Below are positions 41,116 to 51,780 of a stretch of 64,000 nt of DNA, one piece after another. Source of the stretch: Halanaerobium saccharolyticum (GTDB lineage: Bacteria > Bacillota > Halanaerobiia > Halanaerobiales > Halanaerobiaceae); contig NZ_QAXS01000001.1 of assembly GCF_003053565.1 (NCBI RefSeq), positions 1 to 64,000 of the forward strand. The letters are read 5' to 3'. The notes under the pieces are model-generated. The model worked only from the letters and a program-made list of their open reading frames with translations. It had not been told where the DNA came from and did not search any database. Each line of letters begins with the position of its first letter. The stretch's first letter is position 1. Position numbers and translations under genes: made by a program.

Positions 41116-44100
41116 ATGTTAAAAAATAAAATCAAATTAATGGATAAATATATTATCAAGGAGGTCAGCTATCCCTTTATTCTGGGGGTTTTTATAGTTA
41201 CTGTGATCCTGATTGGTAATTACTTTTTTCAACTGACAGATTTAATAATAGTAAAAAAAGTTCCGGTACCGCTTGTGCTGCAGCTTTTAGCCTATAAAAT
41301 CCCTTCCGTAATGGTCGAAACCTTTCCGATTGCAGTATTATTTGCAACAATGACCGGGATTGGGCGGCTGAATAGAGAAAATGAGATTACAGCAATTAGA
41401 ATGGGAGGAGTCAGCATTTTTCGGCTGATAATTCCACTGCTGGTTGTCGGAATAACTGTGAGTGGGCTGACCCTGATTTTAAATGAGAAGATTGTGCCCT
41501 GGGCAAATCACCAGGCAAATAATATTATTCGCGAAACAATTTTAAAAGATGCAATGCCCGATCCGGAAGAAGAAGTCTTTTTTAAAGGTCCTCAGGGGCG
41601 TCTTTTTTATGTTGAAGAATATGACGAAAAGGCTGGGGAGCTGCGCCGGGTTGTTATTTATGAGCTGGGTCAGGACCAGTTTCCGGAGGTAATTACAGCT
41701 GAGCGGGGAATAATTGAAGAAAACCGCTGGCTTTTAAATTCAGGAATTATTCACCAGTATGATGAACAGGGACGAGTTATTTTTGAAAGTAAATTTCAGG
41801 AGATGGAGATTCAGTTGACTGATGAAATGAAAGAACTTTACGGCAGCCAGAAGTCTTCATCAGAGATGAGCAGAGAAGAACTCGGCAAAAGAATTGCTCT
41901 ATTCAAAAAAAGCGGGATTAATGTGGATTCCTTGATGGTTGACTATCATTTGAAACTCGCCGAGCCGCTGACAGCTCTCCTTTTTGTGCTGATTAGTGTT
42001 CCCTTAAGCTTGAGTGGTAAGGAAAGCAGAACTTTAAATTTGATTTTTACAATCGTCATTGTCTTTTTATACTATGTAATTTTATCCTTCAGCCGCTCTT
42101 TTGGCAAAAATTATATTCTGCCACCACTGGTTGCTGCCTGGCTGCCCAATCTGATATTTCTGCTTCTGGGAGTTGCACTGCTTTTCTGGCGTGATTCCTG
42201 GCAAAAAATAATCAATAAGATCTTTAAAATCCTGGGGATTTCTACGGCGGTTTTCCTGCTGGTTTTAAGTCTGAACACAGCCGGAAGTGCGGAAGAATTT
42301 AGAGTCAATGCAGATTATTTAGACTATGATCAGAGCAGTGGCTTTATTAAAATTAGAGGTAATATCGATGGTAATTATGGTCAGTATTATTTAAAATCAG
42401 AAGATATAAAGATTGAGCTTGCCGACGGCAGCCAGCGCAGTCTGGAGAGTGCCGAAAATATTGAGCTTTTACCCGGAGCAATTTCGGGCTGTGATTTTGA
42501 CAGTCCCCACTATTATTTTGATGCAGAAAGAGTTGTCATTAAACCGGAAGAATATATTAAGATGTATAATATAGTTTTTAAAGAACTAAACGGCAGGCTG
42601 CCGCTTTTATACTGGCCCTATCTTTACATCTCATTGAAAGAAGAAAACAGCAATTTTGTCCCTTCCTTTGGCTACCATCAGCAGCGGGGCTGGTTTATCA
42701 AGACCAAATACTTTTACAACAACCGCTTTGACCTCCCCGGTAACTTTTATCTGGACCACTACACTATTTCAGGTTCAGCAGGGGGAATTAAACAGTACTT
42801 TCTCAACAGCAGCCGGCAGGAAGCCTATCTTTATTACTATACTCAGCAGAATAAAACTGATCTTCCCGGCCTTTTCAACTGGGAAGCAGAATTATATCAT
42901 GAGGCCGATCTCGGCAGCTGGGAGGAAGAATTGTCCTATTTTTATCAGGATTATGATGACAGAATTGAAATCGAGACTGGACTTGATTTTTACTACAACA
43001 AACAGAGTCGGCGCAGCAGAATAAATTTTGATTATGAAGAAGAGGATTATTTTGAGCAGAACAGCCGGGATCAAAAAGATTACGGGCTTGATTTCTATTT
43101 TTATGACCGCTTTTTCGACAGTCTGACAGCCAGAGTTAATTATGACCGCGATTATATCAGGGATCCTGATGATGGTCTGGAGCGGGAAATCAATAGAGAC
43201 CTTGACCTGCGCTATAATCCAGGCGGAGGCTGGCGCAGTCGGCTTAACTATTATGATGGTGAGAGGGAAAGTCCTACAGACCCTTTAAAAAGCAGACAGG
43301 GAGGGGAATTTTCAATCTCCAAAAGAAGCGGTTATTATGATTTCACTTTTTTACTGGAGCAGTATTCTCCCCGCCTGACAGAAGATGACCAGGTTAACTT
43401 TTCCCGACTGCCGGAGCTTTCTCTCGACTATAATCCACCGGGGGCTTTTTCCTACCTCGGTCAGCTGGGGCGTTATTACGAAGATGCCAGTGGAGTAGAA
43501 GGTTACCGGATTCGCGGGGAAGCAGAATACAGTGACTCTTTTTCCCTGCCTTTAAATAGTTATCTGAGAGTCAGCCAGGAATTCAGCAGCAGTGCCTATC
43601 AGATTGAAGGCAGAGAATATGACCGAATTCCCAACCAGCAGCATTCTGAAACCGGCCTGCGGCTGAGGACAAATTTAGGCCGCAGCTTAACTCTGCGCAA
43701 TAACTATACATATCGAGAGCAGTGGGGCTATACCCCCTTTGAATTTGATGAGGTGGAAAGAAAAAATGAGCTTGAAAATGAGCTTAATTATCAAATTTCT
43801 CCCTATCTAGATTTTGACCTGGAAGGCGGTTATGACTTTCTTGATTATCAGTATCTGCCGCTGGAAGCATATCTGGACTTAAACCCGACCGAAAATTGGG
43901 AGCTTAAGCTTGGAACTCGTTATGACTTGAATAATATGCTTTTTGATGATCAACTAATTTTCAGCAGTACTTATGAGAGCGAGCGCTGGGAGCACCGGCT
44001 GGGGCTTGAATATGACCTCAATTCCTCCCGGCTTGAAGAAATTGACAATCAGCTGATTTATGAGCTGGAAGGAGACTGGGGCTGGTATCTGGAGAGTAAT

Positions 44101-44331
44101 TTGAGTATCGATTATGACTATGATCAGCAGATCAGGGAGGCCAATATTCAGCTCAATAAGAGATTCCACTGCCGGGAGCTTAAGTTTAGCTATGATTATC
44201 TGCGGGAGGAATTTACTGTTCAGTATTCAATCGATCTTTTCCCCGCCGATCCAGTTGGCTTTACTAAAACAGAAGACGATCTGATTTTTGAATCACGGAT
44301 AGAAGACCGCCTTAAAAGCGGTGATTTGTAG
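41116..44331 (+). CDS. fused LptF/G permease and LptD (OstA) outer-membrane protein
   Basis: One uninterrupted 1071-codon frame. Residues 1-360 are an LptF/LptG (YjgP/YjgQ) permease: KYIIKEVSYPFILGVFIV, RLNRENEITAIRMGGVS, a periplasmic beta domain (150-250), and the three last helices ending ALLFWRDSW. Residues about 365-392 look like a signal peptide (IFKILGISTAVFLLVLSL, then NTAGSA before EEF). Residues 393-1071 are LptD-like: an OstA N-domain (FRVNADYLDYDQSSG), the GCDFDSPHYYFDAE motif (Cys459), a long Tyr/Asp-rich barrel, and the LptD-type end HCRELKFSYDY (Cys1019), LFPADPVGF. LptG exports lipopolysaccharide from the inner membrane and LptD inserts it in the outer one. The only two Cys seen in the LptD part could form the usual disulfide. 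Confidence 0.88.
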   Translation: MLKNKIKLMDKYIIKEVSYPFILGVFIVTVILIGNYFFQLTDLIIVKKVPVPLVLQLLAYKIPSVMVETFPIAVLFATMTGIGRLNRENEITAIRMGGVSIFRLIIPLLVVGITVSGLTLILNEKIVPWANHQANNIIRETILKDAMPDPEEEVFFKGPQGRLFYVEEYDEKAGELRRVVIYELGQDQFPEVITAERGIIEENRWLLNSGIIHQYDEQGRVIFESKFQEMEIQLTDEMKELYGSQKSSSEMSREELGKRIALFKKSGINVDSLMVDYHLKLAEPLTALLFVLISVPLSLSGKESRTLNLIFTIVIVFLYYVILSFSRSFGKNYILPPLVAAWLPNLIFLLLGVALLFWRDSWQKIINKIFKILGISTAVFLLVLSLNTAGSAEEFRVNADYLDYDQSSGFIKIRGNIDGNYGQYYLKSEDIKIELADGSQRSLESAENIELLPGAISGCDFDSPHYYFDAERVVIKPEEYIKMYNIVFKELNGRLPLLYWPYLYISLKEENSNFVPSFGYHQQRGWFIKTKYFYNNRFDLPGNFYLDHYTISGSAGGIKQYFLNSSRQEAYLYYYTQQNKTDLPGLFNWEAELYHEADLGSWEEELSYFYQDYDDRIEIETGLDFYYNKQSRRSRINFDYEEEDYFEQNSRDQKDYGLDFYFYDRFFDSLTARVNYDRDYIRDPDDGLEREINRDLDLRYNPGGGWRSRLNYYDGERESPTDPLKSRQGGEFSISKRSGYYDFTFLLEQYSPRLTEDDQVNFSRLPELSLDYNPPGAFSYLGQLGRYYEDASGVEGYRIRGEAEYSDSFSLPLNSYLRVSQEFSSSAYQIEGREYDRIPNQQHSETGLRLRTNLGRSLTLRNNYTYREQWGYTPFEFDEVERKNELENELNYQISPYLDFDLEGGYDFLDYQYLPLEAYLDLNPTENWELKLGTRYDLNNMLFDDQLIFSSTYESERWEHRLGLEYDLNSSRLEEIDNQLIYELEGDWGWYLESNLSIDYDYDQQIREANIQLNKRFHCRELKFSYDYLREEFTVQYSIDLFPADPVGFTKTEDDLIFESRIEDRLKSGDL

Positions 44332-46478: not shown

Positions 46479-46617
46479 TTTGCCAAAAACTCTTTTCAGA
46501 TCAGGCCTTTTTCTGATATAATCAACTCAAGAAAATGTTTTCAAAAATTATTATTTTATTTATTGGGAAAAAAATTCAAAATTTGAGCCGGCCGAAAAAA
46601 AGAAAATAGCTATTTAG

Positions 46618-46733: not shown

Positions 46734-48062
46734 ATGGCAATTAAGGAAGTTAAGAAATTTCCTATTGGTGGAATCCACCTGCCTGAGAAAAAAGGGCTGA
46801 CAAGTGATCAGCCGATCAAAATAATGCCGGATCCGGTAGAGGTAGCGATTCCCTTAAGCCAGCATATTGGTGCTCCAGCGGAGCCTATTGTTAAAGCTGG
46901 CGATAAAGTTAAAAAGGGTGAATGTATAGCAGAATTGCAGGGGAAGATTTCGGCTCGAGTTCATTCCAGTATTAATGGAACAGTTAAAGGAATTGTCGAG
47001 CGAAAAATGCCTGGTGAAGGAAGTTATCAGTGTATTTTAATTGAAAAGGATAAAGAAGAGGTTGAGCTGGAAAAAGAAGAAATAGATCGAAAGCTCCTGC
47101 CTGAAGTAGAGACAATTAGAAAGCGGGTAGAAGCAGCCGGGATAATTGGAATGGGAGGGGCTGGTTTTCCAACCCATGTTAAACTTAGTCCACCTCCGGA
47201 AATGGAAATTGACACAGTAATTATCAATGGAGCCGAGTGTGAGCCTTTTCTGACAGTTGATCACCGCCTGCTCCTGGAAGAATATGAAGATTTGTTTAGA
47301 GGTCTGGAGCTGATCAAAAAGGCAGTTGGAGCTGAAAATGGGATTATTGCAATTGAGTTAAACAAAAAGGATGCAATTGAAAAATTACAGCAGAAAGCTG
47401 CTGACTGGCCCGGAATTGAGGTACAGGCACTGGATACTCGTTATCCTCATGGAGCCGAAAAACATCTGATCAAAGCTGTTTTAGATCGAGAAGTTCCCAA
47501 GGGGGAGCTGCCGATGGCGGTTAATGTGGTTGTTAATAATGTGCAGACTGCAGTCAAAATTGCCAGAGCAGTTGATTTTGAAGAAGCAGTAATTGACCGG
47601 GTGCTGACTGTTAGTGGTGAGGCCTTAAAAACCCCTTCTAATTTAAGGGTTCCGATCGGAACTTCAGTTCAGGATGTAGTAGAATTTTGTGGTGGTCCAA
47701 AAGATAAAGAAGACTATCAGATTATTGTGGGGGGACCGATGACAGGAATGAATATTGATGACTGGACAATTCCGGTAACCAAAGGAACTTCCGGGGTAGT
47801 TTTAATCACTGCTGAAGAATATGCAGATAGCGAAACCCGTCCCTGTATTAGATGTGGTAGATGTGGTGAAGTCTGTCCTATGTACCTGGCGCCAAATAGG
47901 ATAACTGCTTTTATCAATAATGATCTGCTTGAGCGTTCACTGGAAGTTGGCTTAATGGACTGTATAGAATGTGGTGCCTGTGCTTATATCTGTCCATCCA
48001 AAAGGCCGCTGGTCCGCTGGTTAAAACGAGGGAAGGCAGAGCATAGAGCAAATCAAAAATAA
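46734..48062 (+). CDS. rnfC: Rnf-type electron transport complex subunit C
   Basis: A 442-residue NAD(H)-interacting, FMN-binding cytoplasmic subunit. It opens KFPIGGIHLPEKKGLTSDQP, then has the NuoF-like Rossmann part with AAGIIGMGGAGFPTHVKL and NGAECEPFLTVDHRL. It ends in two [4Fe-4S] clusters, CIRCGRCGEVCP (from Cys371) and CIECGACAYICP (from Cys410). All motifs look intact and the length is standard for the short form, without the long C-terminal tail of enterobacterial RnfC. GGAGGTGCAG precedes ATG 46734. It is first in the operon; a possible leader terminator lies upstream. Confidence 0.93.
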   Translation: MAIKEVKKFPIGGIHLPEKKGLTSDQPIKIMPDPVEVAIPLSQHIGAPAEPIVKAGDKVKKGECIAELQGKISARVHSSINGTVKGIVERKMPGEGSYQCILIEKDKEEVELEKEEIDRKLLPEVETIRKRVEAAGIIGMGGAGFPTHVKLSPPPEMEIDTVIINGAECEPFLTVDHRLLLEEYEDLFRGLELIKKAVGAENGIIAIELNKKDAIEKLQQKAADWPGIEVQALDTRYPHGAEKHLIKAVLDREVPKGELPMAVNVVVNNVQTAVKIARAVDFEEAVIDRVLTVSGEALKTPSNLRVPIGTSVQDVVEFCGGPKDKEDYQIIVGGPMTGMNIDDWTIPVTKGTSGVVLITAEEYADSETRPCIRCGRCGEVCPMYLAPNRITAFINNDLLERSLEVGLMDCIECGACAYICPSKRPLVRWLKRGKAEHRANQK

Positions 48063-48081
48063 AAGAGGTGGTATTTAAAAA

Positions 48082-50625
48082 ATGGCAAATTTATTTAGGT
48101 CGAGTGGGCCTCATATAGAGAGCCCAGAAACTATAGAAACCAACATGTGGAGTGTAGTAATAGCACTGATTCCTGCTTTAATTGCGGGAACATACTTTTT
48201 TGGCTTATATGCACTGTATTTAGTTCTGGCCAGTGCTTTAAGTGCTGTTTTATTTGAAAAACCTTTTGTCAAAAGCAAAGCCACCTTTGGAGATGGGAGT
48301 GCTTTTCTGGCGGGTATTTTACTTGGCCTGACTCTACCACCTGTGGTTCCCTGGTGGATACCAATTCTGGGTGGATTCTTAACAGTTGTGGTTGGGAAAC
48401 ACTTATTTGGTGGGCTGGGCAGCAATATCTTTAACCCGGCTTTAGTTGCCAGAGCAATTTTGCTTTTATCCTATCCTGCCTTAATGATCGAGTGGGTAAG
48501 TCCGGTTGATGGAGTTTCAGCGGCCACAGCTCTGCAGCTGGGGAGTGATTCCTTTAGTTATACTGAACTGATAATCGGAAATGTTCCGGGCAGTATTGGC
48601 GAAACTTCTGTTATTGCTCTGCTAATTGGTGGAGCTTATTTGTATCTTAAAGATTATATTGATCTGAGGATTCCGCTTTCTTTTGTAGCCGGTGCGGCTG
48701 GAGCAGCGATGCTTTTTGGTCAGGATCCAGTTTTTGCCGTATTTTCCGGAGGTCTAATTTTTGCTGCTATCTATATGGCAACAGATATGGTAACTTCTCC
48801 GGTTGCTAAATGGGCAAAGATAGTTTATGGTCTTGCAGGAGGATTTTTAACAATTTTTATCCGCCGCTATACCCCTTACCCTGAGGGAATAACCTTTGCA
48901 ATTTTGATTATTAACGGAGCTTCTTATTTTCTGGATAATGCTTTTGAGGAGCCGCATTTTGGCGAAGTTGAGTATGTTAAGAAAAGAGTTGCTCACTTCA
49001 GTGCAATAATTATGGCGGCTGTTTTAATTTTACTTGTGGGCATGACTTTAATCGATGATGACGACCCCTATCCCGGTAGTCTAACCTACAATCATTTAAA
49101 AGAAGCGGTGCCGGCAGCAGAAAATTTTGAAATAATAGAAAGAGACGATAATGATATTTTATTTGCAGCACGAGCAGAGGAAGAAATTATCAAAGACCTT
49201 GTTTACATATCTCGTAATGGTTTTGAAGCTCCAATAGAGCTTTTATTGAGTCTGGAGCCAGCAGGTAGTATAGATAAAATTCAAATTATTAATGAAAGCG
49301 AATCACCAACCCTGGGAGCCAGAATAAAGGATCAGGAATTCCTGTCTCAGTTTAGAGAATTTACAACTGCTGAGGCTGATCAGGTTATGGCAGAAACTGA
49401 TATGATCAGTGGAGCTACTTATTCTTCTCAAACAGTCTCTCGAGGAGTTCAGGCTGGTCTGAGGCTTTTAATTGCAGAAAAGGAAGCTGGACTGCAGGAT
49501 GGAGTCTATCAGGGACAGGCTGAAGGAGCACAGGGAGATATTGTCCTGGAGATTACAGTTGAAAATGGAGATATAGTTGATCTAGAGATTCTGGAAGAGC
49601 AGGAAACCGAGCATCTGGCTGAGCCAGCTTACGAAGAGCTAGAAGCTCAGCTCTTAAGAGAACAAACTGCTGATTTAGATGTTATATCCGGTGCAACTTA
49701 TACCAGTGAAGCATATATGGAAGCAGTACAAAAAGCAATCGATCAGGCTTCCCCGGAATCCAGTACTGATGGTGATTTTGAAGCTGGAACTTACCAGGGC
49801 TCAGCTCAGGGCCACTCCGGTCAGATCGAATTAGAAGTTGTTGTTGAAGCCGGAGAAATTACCGAAATTGAAGTCTTAACCCAAAATGAAACTGAGGGTC
49901 TTGGTGATGATGCAATTGAAGAGATTGCAGCTCAAATTATTGCAGAGCAGAGCCTCGAAGTTGACTTGGTTTCTGGAGCTACTAATTCTTCAGAGGGGAC
50001 AATTAATGCGGTTAGGAATGCTTTAGACTCTGATTCGGAGTCAGCTGAGACCGATGCTGGTTCTGAAGAAGATTCAGAAAGTGATACTGATTCCTCAGCA
50101 ACCTGGGAGGAAGAAGACTCTGAGGGAGAGGAAGAAACTGCAGCTGAAGCAGAAAGTGAAGGTGGTCTGATCAACTTATCTAACCTTGACTTAGAAGACG
50201 GAGAGTATCGAGGTTCAGCTGAAGGGCACCGAGCACCGATAGAAGTCAGTGTGCTGGTTGAAGATAACGAAATCAATGAGATCAGAATAGTGTCTCAGGA
50301 AGAAAGCCCCGGTATTGGAGATGAGGCAATGGCAGAACTGAGTCAAAGTCTGCTTGCCGAGCAGAGTCTGGAAGTAGATCTGGTCTCAGGAGCAACCAAT
50401 TCTTCTGAAGCTTTTCTAAAGGCGATAGATAATGCACTTACAGGTGAAAGATACGGCAGCCTGGAAGAGGCAGAAGATCTGCAGACAGCTCAGGAAATTC
50501 TTGCAGCTGAAGAAGATTCAGAAAGCGATACAGATTCTTCAGCAACCTGGGATGAAGAAAGCGACTCAGAAGAAAATGCAGAAGAAACAGATGAAGAAGC
50601 TGCAGAAGGAGGTTCCAATGGATAA
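48082..50625 (+). CDS. RnfD-RnfG fusion with four FMN-binding domains
   Basis: An 847-residue fusion. Residues 1-305 are RnfD, an integral membrane subunit with about eight or nine helices; Thr149 in DGVSAATAL fits its covalent FMN site. A membrane helix (HFSAIIMAAVLILLVGMTLI, about residue 308-328) and the RnfG-type FMN domain follow, with SGATYSS (Thr446). Three further FMN_bind domains come next, with SGATYTS (Thr539), SGATNSS (Thr634) and SGATNSS (Thr772). Two acidic linkers (about 650-690 and 810-847) are nearly the same. RnfG alone normally has one such domain. The usual separate rnfG is absent. Up to five flavins would lie on the outer side. Confidence 0.92.
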   Translation: MANLFRSSGPHIESPETIETNMWSVVIALIPALIAGTYFFGLYALYLVLASALSAVLFEKPFVKSKATFGDGSAFLAGILLGLTLPPVVPWWIPILGGFLTVVVGKHLFGGLGSNIFNPALVARAILLLSYPALMIEWVSPVDGVSAATALQLGSDSFSYTELIIGNVPGSIGETSVIALLIGGAYLYLKDYIDLRIPLSFVAGAAGAAMLFGQDPVFAVFSGGLIFAAIYMATDMVTSPVAKWAKIVYGLAGGFLTIFIRRYTPYPEGITFAILIINGASYFLDNAFEEPHFGEVEYVKKRVAHFSAIIMAAVLILLVGMTLIDDDDPYPGSLTYNHLKEAVPAAENFEIIERDDNDILFAARAEEEIIKDLVYISRNGFEAPIELLLSLEPAGSIDKIQIINESESPTLGARIKDQEFLSQFREFTTAEADQVMAETDMISGATYSSQTVSRGVQAGLRLLIAEKEAGLQDGVYQGQAEGAQGDIVLEITVENGDIVDLEILEEQETEHLAEPAYEELEAQLLREQTADLDVISGATYTSEAYMEAVQKAIDQASPESSTDGDFEAGTYQGSAQGHSGQIELEVVVEAGEITEIEVLTQNETEGLGDDAIEEIAAQIIAEQSLEVDLVSGATNSSEGTINAVRNALDSDSESAETDAGSEEDSESDTDSSATWEEEDSEGEEETAAEAESEGGLINLSNLDLEDGEYRGSAEGHRAPIEVSVLVEDNEINEIRIVSQEESPGIGDEAMAELSQSLLAEQSLEVDLVSGATNSSEAFLKAIDNALTGERYGSLEEAEDLQTAQEILAAEEDSESDTDSSATWDEESDSEENAEETDEEAAEGGSNG

Positions 50626-51184
50626 AAACCTAACAATACTCGAAAAAGTAATGCTGATGGGGCTTTTGCCACTGCTGGGAGCTACCAACAATTTAAAACA
50701 GGCTTTAATCACAGCTATCAGTGCAGTTTTGATTTCGCTTTTAATAAAATTCTTTGCCAGATTTATGACTGAAAGGGAGGATTATCACTGGTATTTACTG
50801 ATTGGAGTTGGTATTACCCTAAGCTATGTTTTTTACATAGCAGTTATCGATATCTTTCCGGAATTAGAAATCTATGTTAACAACTATTTACTGCTGCTTG
50901 GCGTAACTCCACTGATATATATTGGAGCCAGCAGAAGTGAGAATGAATTTTTCGCCTATCAGAAGGATTTCTTTATCCTGATGATTTTTGTCGGTGCTCT
51001 GCGTGAACTATTAGGTAGAGGCAGTATTTTTTCTATTCAGCTGACAGCAGCGGGTTATCCACCTTTGGGTTTTGTCAAAGATTTCCCCGGAGCGTTTTTA
51101 ATAGTCAGCATCATTTATCTGCTGGTAGAGCTTTCACGTAAGGATAAAAAAAACCTGAGGGAAGGAAGTGAGAAAGTTGTCTGA
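50618..51184 (+). CDS. rnfE: Rnf-type complex subunit E, divergent and cysteine-free
   Basis: A 188-residue protein with six membrane helices. The family is recognised by position and by patterns such as MLMGLLPLLGATNNLKQAL in place of the usual LGLCPTLAVT. In RnfE/RnfA and NqrD/NqrE, Cys in this motif and in a second half-motif hold an intramembrane [2Fe-2S] cluster. This protein has no cysteine at all; the second motif reads LGVTPLIYIGASRSE. ATG 50618 overlaps the RnfDG stop by 8 bases, after AAGGAGGT; the longer open frame upstream only reads through the fusion gene. Confidence 0.8.
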   Translation: MDKNLTILEKVMLMGLLPLLGATNNLKQALITAISAVLISLLIKFFARFMTEREDYHWYLLIGVGITLSYVFYIAVIDIFPELEIYVNNYLLLLGVTPLIYIGASRSENEFFAYQKDFFILMIFVGALRELLGRGSIFSIQLTAAGYPPLGFVKDFPGAFLIVSIIYLLVELSRKDKKNLREGSEKVV

Positions 51185-51728
51185 GTTATCTCGTCTATTT
51201 TTGAATTCATTATTAAGTGAAAATATGAGTCTTGCTTTTTTCCTGGGGATATTATTTATGATGGTTGAATCAGGCTCGATCAAAAAAACAGCGGTCAAAG
51301 GTTTAAAGTATGTGAGCACAGTTTTTGTAATTAATATACTGGGCTGGTTTTTACACAGCTTTTTACCATCAGGTCTGGATCCACTCAACCCGGCAATATT
51401 TTTTATTACAACAGTGCTCGGGGTTACCGTTCTCAAATACTGGGGTGAGCTGAAAGGGGAGTGGTTTGGGCTGCCTAAATTCATCCTGGCTATTGGACCG
51501 CTTTTTGGTACCCAGCTGTTGATTCAGAATGGAGCTTATGTTTATGCAGAGATGATGACAGTAAATACAGCCTATATTCTGGGCGGCTATATTCTTTTTG
51601 TGCTGATTGCGGCCATTAAAGAAGAAATTATCATTTCTGATGCAGCACCTGTTTTTAAAAGTTATTCGACTCTGCTGGCTGCAATTGCAATGCTGGCCCT
51701 GGGAGTAATTGGGATACAAATTATCTAA
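51168..51728 (+). CDS. rnfA: Rnf-type complex subunit A, divergent and cysteine-free
   Basis: A 186-residue membrane protein with about six helices, partner of RnfE. It starts at GTG 51168 (MRKLSELS) or TTG 51177, both inside the end of rnfE. In place of the conserved Cys motif it reads SLAFFLGILFMMVESGSIKK, and the second half-motif is GPLFGTQLLIQNGAYV; no cysteine is present. RnfA and RnfE normally pair with inverted topology around a [2Fe-2S] cluster, which cannot form here. The operon ends with this gene: a terminator follows in 29 bases and no rnfB is present. Confidence 0.75.
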   Translation: MRKLSELSRLFLNSLLSENMSLAFFLGILFMMVESGSIKKTAVKGLKYVSTVFVINILGWFLHSFLPSGLDPLNPAIFFITTVLGVTVLKYWGELKGEWFGLPKFILAIGPLFGTQLLIQNGAYVYAEMMTVNTAYILGGYILFVLIAAIKEEIIISDAAPVFKSYSTLLAAIAMLALGVIGIQII

Positions 51729-51756
51729 TCAAATTTAATAATTCCTTCAGATGATG

Positions 51757-51780
51757 CCGACAGTTCAAACTGTCGGTTTT
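51757..51780 (+). terminator. terminator after the rnf-like operon
   Basis: Perfect stem CCGACAGTT/AACTGTCGG with a tiny loop, followed by TTTTG. Confidence 0.75.

Follow-up and report, generated by a model that had tools for sequence, protein, structure and literature searches.

Canonical Rnf complexes pass electrons from ferredoxin to RnfB and then across the membrane, through the cluster of RnfA and RnfE, to the FMN of RnfG; from there they return by way of the RnfD flavins to RnfC and NAD+ (PMC12174285). Structural models disagree on the Na+ site of Rnf and NQR: one places it in RnfA/E, gated by the [2Fe-2S] cluster, with Na+ handling assigned to particular residues of both subunits in a recent study of the A. 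woodii complex (PMC11889175), and another places it in NqrB/RnfD (PMC10643135). One-way electron export by an 'NQR/RNF-like' system was proposed by Meheust et al. 2021 and Huang et al. 2024. This exporter consists of RnfD fused to an NqrF-type NAD domain and one FMN_bind subunit, and was reported for the most part from Actinobacteria and the candidate phyla radiation (PMC8238504, PMC11334425).

The window, by which we mean the whole stretch of 64,000 nucleotides analysed, comes from a Halanaerobium-like genome (G000; 3.2 Mb, 98.7% complete). It carries four head-to-tail genes: rnfC, a fusion of rnfD with FMN-binding domains, and the genes of Cys-free RnfE-like and RnfA-like proteins, hereafter E* and A* (Table 1). 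The first-pass annotation had described an operon of rnfC, an rnfD-rnfG fusion, rnfE and rnfA followed by a terminator, with no rnfB and with Cys-free RnfE and RnfA. Open reading frames, Pfam and TIGR assignments and the hairpin all agree with this layout, and both translations are free of Cys; the fusion is also real, but it holds four FMN-binding domains and not one RnfG.

The RnfC protein reaches 510.7 bits with TIGR01945 (cut-off 246) and has the NADH/FMN domain and the two [4Fe-4S] motifs of canonical Rnf; the fusion reaches 240.7 bits with TIGR01946 (cut-off 207). PF00175, the NqrF-type NAD domain, gave no match in the fusion, where the partner of RnfD is FMN_bind, and the flavin motif of RnfD still has its Thr (DGVSAATAL). 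E* starts at ATG 50618 with an AGGAGG site just 5' of it; a longer reading frame from 50432 runs into the fusion gene. The upstream lnt gene is separated from rnfC by a 255-bp gap, and the gene 3' of the operon (51906) encodes an HD-domain protein according to Pfam. A search of the reading frames and of Pfam matches in the window detected no rnfB in or beside the operon. Neither Mrp genes nor a terminal acceptor gene adjoin it, and no Rfam elements were found within it or upstream.

Table 1. Features of the clusterless operon in the window and their supporting evidence.
Feature	Position	Strand	Evidence and remarks
Promoter-like site 5' of rnfC	46493..46522	+	10/12 consensus match, TG before second hexamer; number of such sites not above chance
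rnfC-like gene	46734..48062	+	Complex1_51K (NADH/FMN) domain, SLBB domain, two [4Fe-4S] motifs; Pfam domains, TIGR01945
rnfD + RnfG-like segment + four FMN_bind domains, 847 aa	48082..50625	+	PF03116 at residues 7-294, four PF04205 stretches
FMN_bind domain 1 (RnfG-like)	49219..49461	+	
FMN_bind domain 2	49525..49743	+	
FMN_bind domain 3	49810..50028	+	
FMN_bind domain 4	50224..50439	+	
E*, Cys-free RnfE/NqrD homologue (188 aa) lacking the cluster ligands	50618..51184	+	Leu/Pro in ligand columns, hhalign, low-confidence model
A*, Cys-free RnfA/NqrE homologue (186 aa) lacking the cluster ligands	51168..51728	+	GTG start; alignment, hhalign, low-confidence model
Intrinsic-terminator-like hairpin 3' of A*	51756..51777	+	9-bp stem, T-rich tail

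Another contig of the same genome carries an intact canonical rnfCDGEAB operon (L003 5975-10996), so that both the second rnf operon and the rnfB that the first-pass annotation had proposed to look for are present. Both Cys are found in its RnfE (VIGMCPTLA, IVVNCLILG) as well as in its RnfA (FLGICPFLG, ITTNCAIMG). The only full RnfB of the genome lies in this operon, which rules out a separate rnfB dedicated to the window operon elsewhere; the latter is therefore a second, divergent system. One ApbE flavin transferase is encoded in the genome.

As single sequences, E* and A* score 21.0 and 18.0 bits with the Pfam Rnf-Nqr model (PF02508), both below its cut-off of 23.8. When groups of sequences were compared with hhalign, E* matched RnfE with 99.3% probability and A* matched RnfA with 98.7%, over 177-179 columns, that is, the whole chain; E* did not align with canonical RnfA, nor A* with canonical RnfE. 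Such whole-chain homology makes both of them members of the Rnf-Nqr family. AlphaFold models, built on four-row alignments, are weak (pLDDT 55 for E* and 58 for A*). In structural comparisons, the low-confidence E* model matched NqrD/RnfE best (Z about 7.9) and the A* model RnfA/NqrE, with RnfA the highest at Z 10.8; values of this size fall within the chance range for helical proteins and are used as support only. Helix breaks in the E* model coincide with the places where ligands would sit. Foldseek alone returned no match for this model at E 0.001.

To locate the cluster ligands, clusterless and canonical homologues gathered from genomes of the class and the phylum were aligned. Both ligand columns of the E family hold Cys in every aligned canonical row (24/24 and 24/24), against Leu and Pro in 12/12 clusterless rows. 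The same holds for the A family, where Cys occupies both columns in all canonical rows (23/23 and 23/23) and in 0/12 clusterless ones; here A* has Leu, Val or Thr at the first position and Pro, Ala, Gly or Met at the second. Across the full sets, all 47 canonical E and all 45 canonical A sequences contain at least 2 Cys. The 12 distinct A* sequences contain none, and E* sequences contain zero to two, at non-ligand positions. One of these is a conserved Cys six columns past the lost second ligand (GVTPLTYIGCK), seen in six of the seven distinct E* sequences from family f142 (e.g. L091:9040-9633).

The residues proposed to handle Na+ in A. woodii Rnf are also gone. Numbered here by mapping through the conserved Cys, they are R67 and E115 in RnfE and, in RnfA, E88 together with the TTN that precedes the second Cys. 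New invariant residues have appeared, among them Gly-x-Thr-Pro and a Tyr in E*, and in A* a Glu (Val in most canonical sequences), a Gln (Ala in canonical ones) and a Tyr; the Thr-Pro and Tyr of E* and the Glu and Gln of A* lie near the lost ligands. Other RnfA/E features, such as Arg-Glu and Gly positions, are retained. In RnfC, all 8 cluster Cys are kept in each of the 19 aligned proteins.

When the E and A families are placed in a single tree, E* and A* form one clade each with 100/100 support; their stem branches are very long (3.79 and 2.94 changes per column), leaving the exact attachment points unsure. The RnfC and RnfD proteins of clusterless operons likewise form one clade each (100/100), apart from canonical C and D of the same genomes. 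The E* of Halanaerobium sp. 5-U2 matches that of the window at each of its 188 aa, and the E* of H. saccharolyticum MSL 17.2 shares 89% identity with it. Comparison of the window with the latter strain puts dN/dS at 0.02-0.06 in E* and 0.08-0.09 in A*, with values of 0.065 in C and 0.06 in D; these are rough figures, synonymous sites being near saturation. The clusterless operon is under purifying selection and is a conserved, monophyletic paralogue with one origin.

The first-pass annotation had allowed for a sequencing or assembly fault, or for a recently decayed copy with an intact operon elsewhere. An intact canonical operon with rnfB does exist in the genome, but we give next to no credence to decay or misassembly of a canonical copy: the frames are open, dN/dS stays at 0.02-0.09, the clades are deeply separated from the canonical proteins, and the same state is found in 12 genomes. 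Decay is ruled out by dN/dS and conservation, and an assembly fault by the recurrence of the operon in other genomes, H. saccharolyticum MSL 17.2 included.

Among the 59 genomes of the class, 12 carry the clusterless pair, and these fall within three families of the order Halanaerobiales: four genomes belong to the genus of the window (one with two copies), one to f2 and seven to f142. No member was detected outside the order among 398 genomes of the phylum. A degenerate peptide-pattern scan of contigs from 84,980 species genomes, the only search to cover phyla beyond that of Halanaerobiales and one that can miss distant members, found none outside the order either. Viral contigs gave no match for the clusterless complex, and a plasmid search with the RnfD fusion yielded RnfD-level matches only, below 60% identity; the one match inspected, in Acetoanaerobium, turned out to be a canonical operon.

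The order C-D-E*-A* is constant wherever the contig shows this stretch, and the number of FMN_bind domains varies from locus to locus: the window has 4, the first copy of G007 3, G352 4 and G422 9. Two Halanaerobium loci of the same gene order, in G006 and in the second copy of G007, have none, so the expectation of a multi-FMN fusion travelling with Cys-free RnfA/E in relatives held for the pair, present in 12 genomes, but not for the fusion, which is not universal. The only FMN_bind protein of G006 is its canonical RnfG; a covalent FMN chain is therefore not essential to the family. This FMN_bind-free arrangement is a second type of C-D-E*-A* operon, represented at L025:2774-6453 and L026:7718-11251 beside a rhodanese-domain gene resembling tRNA 2-selenouridine synthase.

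The constant gene order bears on whether E* and A* might have dropped out of electron transfer altogether and now work as an independent transporter whose genes have simply remained in place. Their very long stems do speak of a strong functional change. A separate transporter nevertheless seems quite improbable to us, as all four proteins share one clade pattern, the order of their genes does not vary, and E* and A* keep the RnfA/E features described above.

In its order C-D-(G)-E-A, its RnfC cofactor motifs, its RnfD flavin Thr and its FMN_bind domains, the window operon resembles canonical Rnf. It differs in that RnfB is missing, RnfA/E have neither the four Cys nor the proposed Na+ residues, and FMN_bind is fused to RnfD in numbers that vary from 0 to 9. 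With two defining features absent, RnfB and the four Cys of RnfA/E, this is not a canonical Rnf complex. Of the remaining ones, the flavinylation Thr of RnfD and FMN_bind are both present in the window, the latter being absent from G006 and the second G007 copy.

Na+-NQR (NqrABCDEF) has a homologous membrane core, and the low-confidence E* and A* models match NqrD and NqrE; NqrF, however, is missing here, the D/E pair lacks cluster ligands, and the peripheral subunit is of the RnfC and not the NqrA type. Closer in outline is the 'NQR/RNF-like' exporter, which also uses half of the Rnf route, from NAD(P)H through an RnfD-like protein to extracytosolic FMN_bind. That system does without the RnfD flavin Thr, RnfC, E or A; the window complex has the Thr and RnfC, and E* and A* in the place of E and A. 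The two share a principle and not a composition. What the first-pass annotation had thought might be a distinct type of machine is better seen as a variant with its own make-up, one-way export by half-Rnf systems of other composition having already been proposed (PMC8238504, PMC11334425).

Multi-flavinylated proteins and Listeria PplA offer a further parallel, with covalently bound FMN outside the membrane as a possible wire (flavinylation being predicted in our case). Flavin-based electron transfer in Listeria uses Ndh2, EetA and EetB; unlike there, the wire of the window complex belongs to RnfD itself. A separate locus of G007 (L121:5606-8360) encodes a protein with FMN_bind and FAD_binding_2 domains; the genes after it are NusG_II and one like heptaprenyl diphosphate synthase component I, a setting reminiscent of extracellular electron transfer of the Listeria type. 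In the mainly open-access literature covered, on Rnf complexes lacking RnfB, on Rnf associated with Mrp and on Rnf in Halanaerobium, we found no description of a C-D-E*-A* complex.

We now propose a route for electrons through this complex. With no RnfB and no Cys-held [2Fe-2S] cluster (0/12 ligand Cys), the path from ferredoxin through RnfB and RnfA/E to RnfG is closed, just as the first-pass annotation had argued; its view that this is not a standard ferredoxin:NAD pump is strongly supported, both RnfB and the four Cys being missing. The loss of RnfB and of the A/E cluster leaves the C-D path only. That second half of the Rnf route is intact, comprising the Cys and NADH/FMN domain of RnfC, the Thr of RnfD and the FMN_bind domains attached to RnfD.

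An electron export machine is a plausible reading of these sequences. In the form that we favour and hold to be probable, the clusterless paralogue RnfC-RnfD/(FMN)n-E*-A* would be a one-way electron exporter with E* and A* as non-redox subunits. NADH would reduce the FMN of RnfC, and electrons would pass over its two [4Fe-4S] clusters to the flavins of RnfD, where they would cross the membrane. They would leave along the covalently bound FMN domains, four in the window, towards an extracytosolic acceptor, which could be Fe(III), a different soluble compound or a reductase in the periplasm. E* and A* would take the place of RnfE and RnfA and carry no electron; they would partner RnfD structurally and might also conduct ions. 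We infer in this scheme that the four products assemble into one complex, that its FMN_bind domains are flavinylated, and that electrons flow outward to such an acceptor, with or without coupling to ions.

Counted against the exporter is that pure transfer from C through D to FMN would not need E* and A*, which are strictly retained. The operon of G006 without FMN_bind and the lack of an acceptor gene adjoining the window operon also weigh against it. Since E* and A* are conserved no less strictly than C and D, the two proteins must matter. A structural role beside RnfD would be the cautious reading of this retention and an ion path the bolder one.

Electron uptake, with the complex running inward from extracytosolic donors to NAD+, appears highly improbable. 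Flavin potentials above that of NADH would make inward flow go uphill. No energy input is evident and no donor system lies beside the operon, even if every carrier is reversible in principle and electrons in Rnf normally run from RnfD through RnfC to NAD+ (PMC12174285).

Genes that follow A* in relatives bear on the nature of the acceptor and on ion coupling. In G352, G422, G423 and G428, A* is immediately followed, in the same orientation, by genes for an Mrp Na+/H+ antiporter operon, whose identity Pfam confirms for G352 and G422. Three f142 genomes (G424, G425 and G427; loci L096:1454-5073, L095 and L093) instead have MobA-like and TatC genes after A*, joined by ExbB/ExbD/TonB in the two with enough sequence (L096 and L095). 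Genomes of f142 hold several molybdopterin enzymes; together with the neighbours of A*, these hint that the acceptors in this family may be respiratory reductases.

Two further f142 operons (L122:3305-10923 and L123:4460-12890) encode an RnfD-like domain fused to a molybdopterin oxidoreductase, in proteins of 1142 and 1125 aa. Their other products are a multi-FMN protein and subunits of the NuoE-like, NuoF-like and NuoG-N-like kinds, and RnfA/E are absent. We saw no description of this further electron-export design in the literature. By analogy, these operons support the idea that RnfD alone may serve as the membrane crossing.

The Mrp neighbourhood is one reason to consider an ion-coupled exporter, a possible though unlikely alternative in which E* and A* would form a cluster-independent cation path and export through C and D would be charge-balanced by, or coupled to, Na+ or H+, with Mrp as a partner in relatives. 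The new invariant polar residues near the lost ligands fit such a path, as does the assignment of Na+ transport to RnfA/E by one group (PMC11889175). Yet the very residues given this role are missing from E* and A*, the window operon has no adjoining Mrp genes, and another group places Na+ in NqrB (PMC10643135). A fuller version of the idea, which we rate as rather unlikely, would see E* and A* as a redox-free ion-translocating pair: the alternating-access RnfA/E module, once a Na+ pump gated by the cluster, would have become a cation path powered by the flow of electrons through RnfD, and the whole would have turned into an ion pump between NADH and an extracytosolic acceptor, working with Mrp in some relatives.

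Whichever role E* and A* have, a natural complex devoid of the cluster and of the proposed RnfA/E Na+ residues, in which strong selection still maintains the pair, lends itself directly to testing the dispute over the Na+ site. One-way export, our preferred reading, would also be a candidate pathway for halophilic fermenters, Halanaerobium among them, to deliver NADH electrons to outside acceptors, for instance in unexplained ferric reduction: H. saccharolyticum_B KY39 reduces ferric citrate with pyruvate, for which its authors suggest fermentation products or electron equivalents (PMC13340142). We take a connection between this activity and the clusterless operon as a lead.

Elsewhere in the window, positions 41116-44331 form a single frame of 1071 aa, the first third of which is an LptF/LptG permease, the only part named by Pfam. 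Its remaining 700 aa come after a signal-like stretch and resemble an OstA-type start with, behind it, Tyr- and acid-rich strands like those of outer-membrane barrels. LptD/E were not found in Halanaerobiales by Antunes et al. (PMC5007114); the product of this frame may be a fused LptD-like protein.
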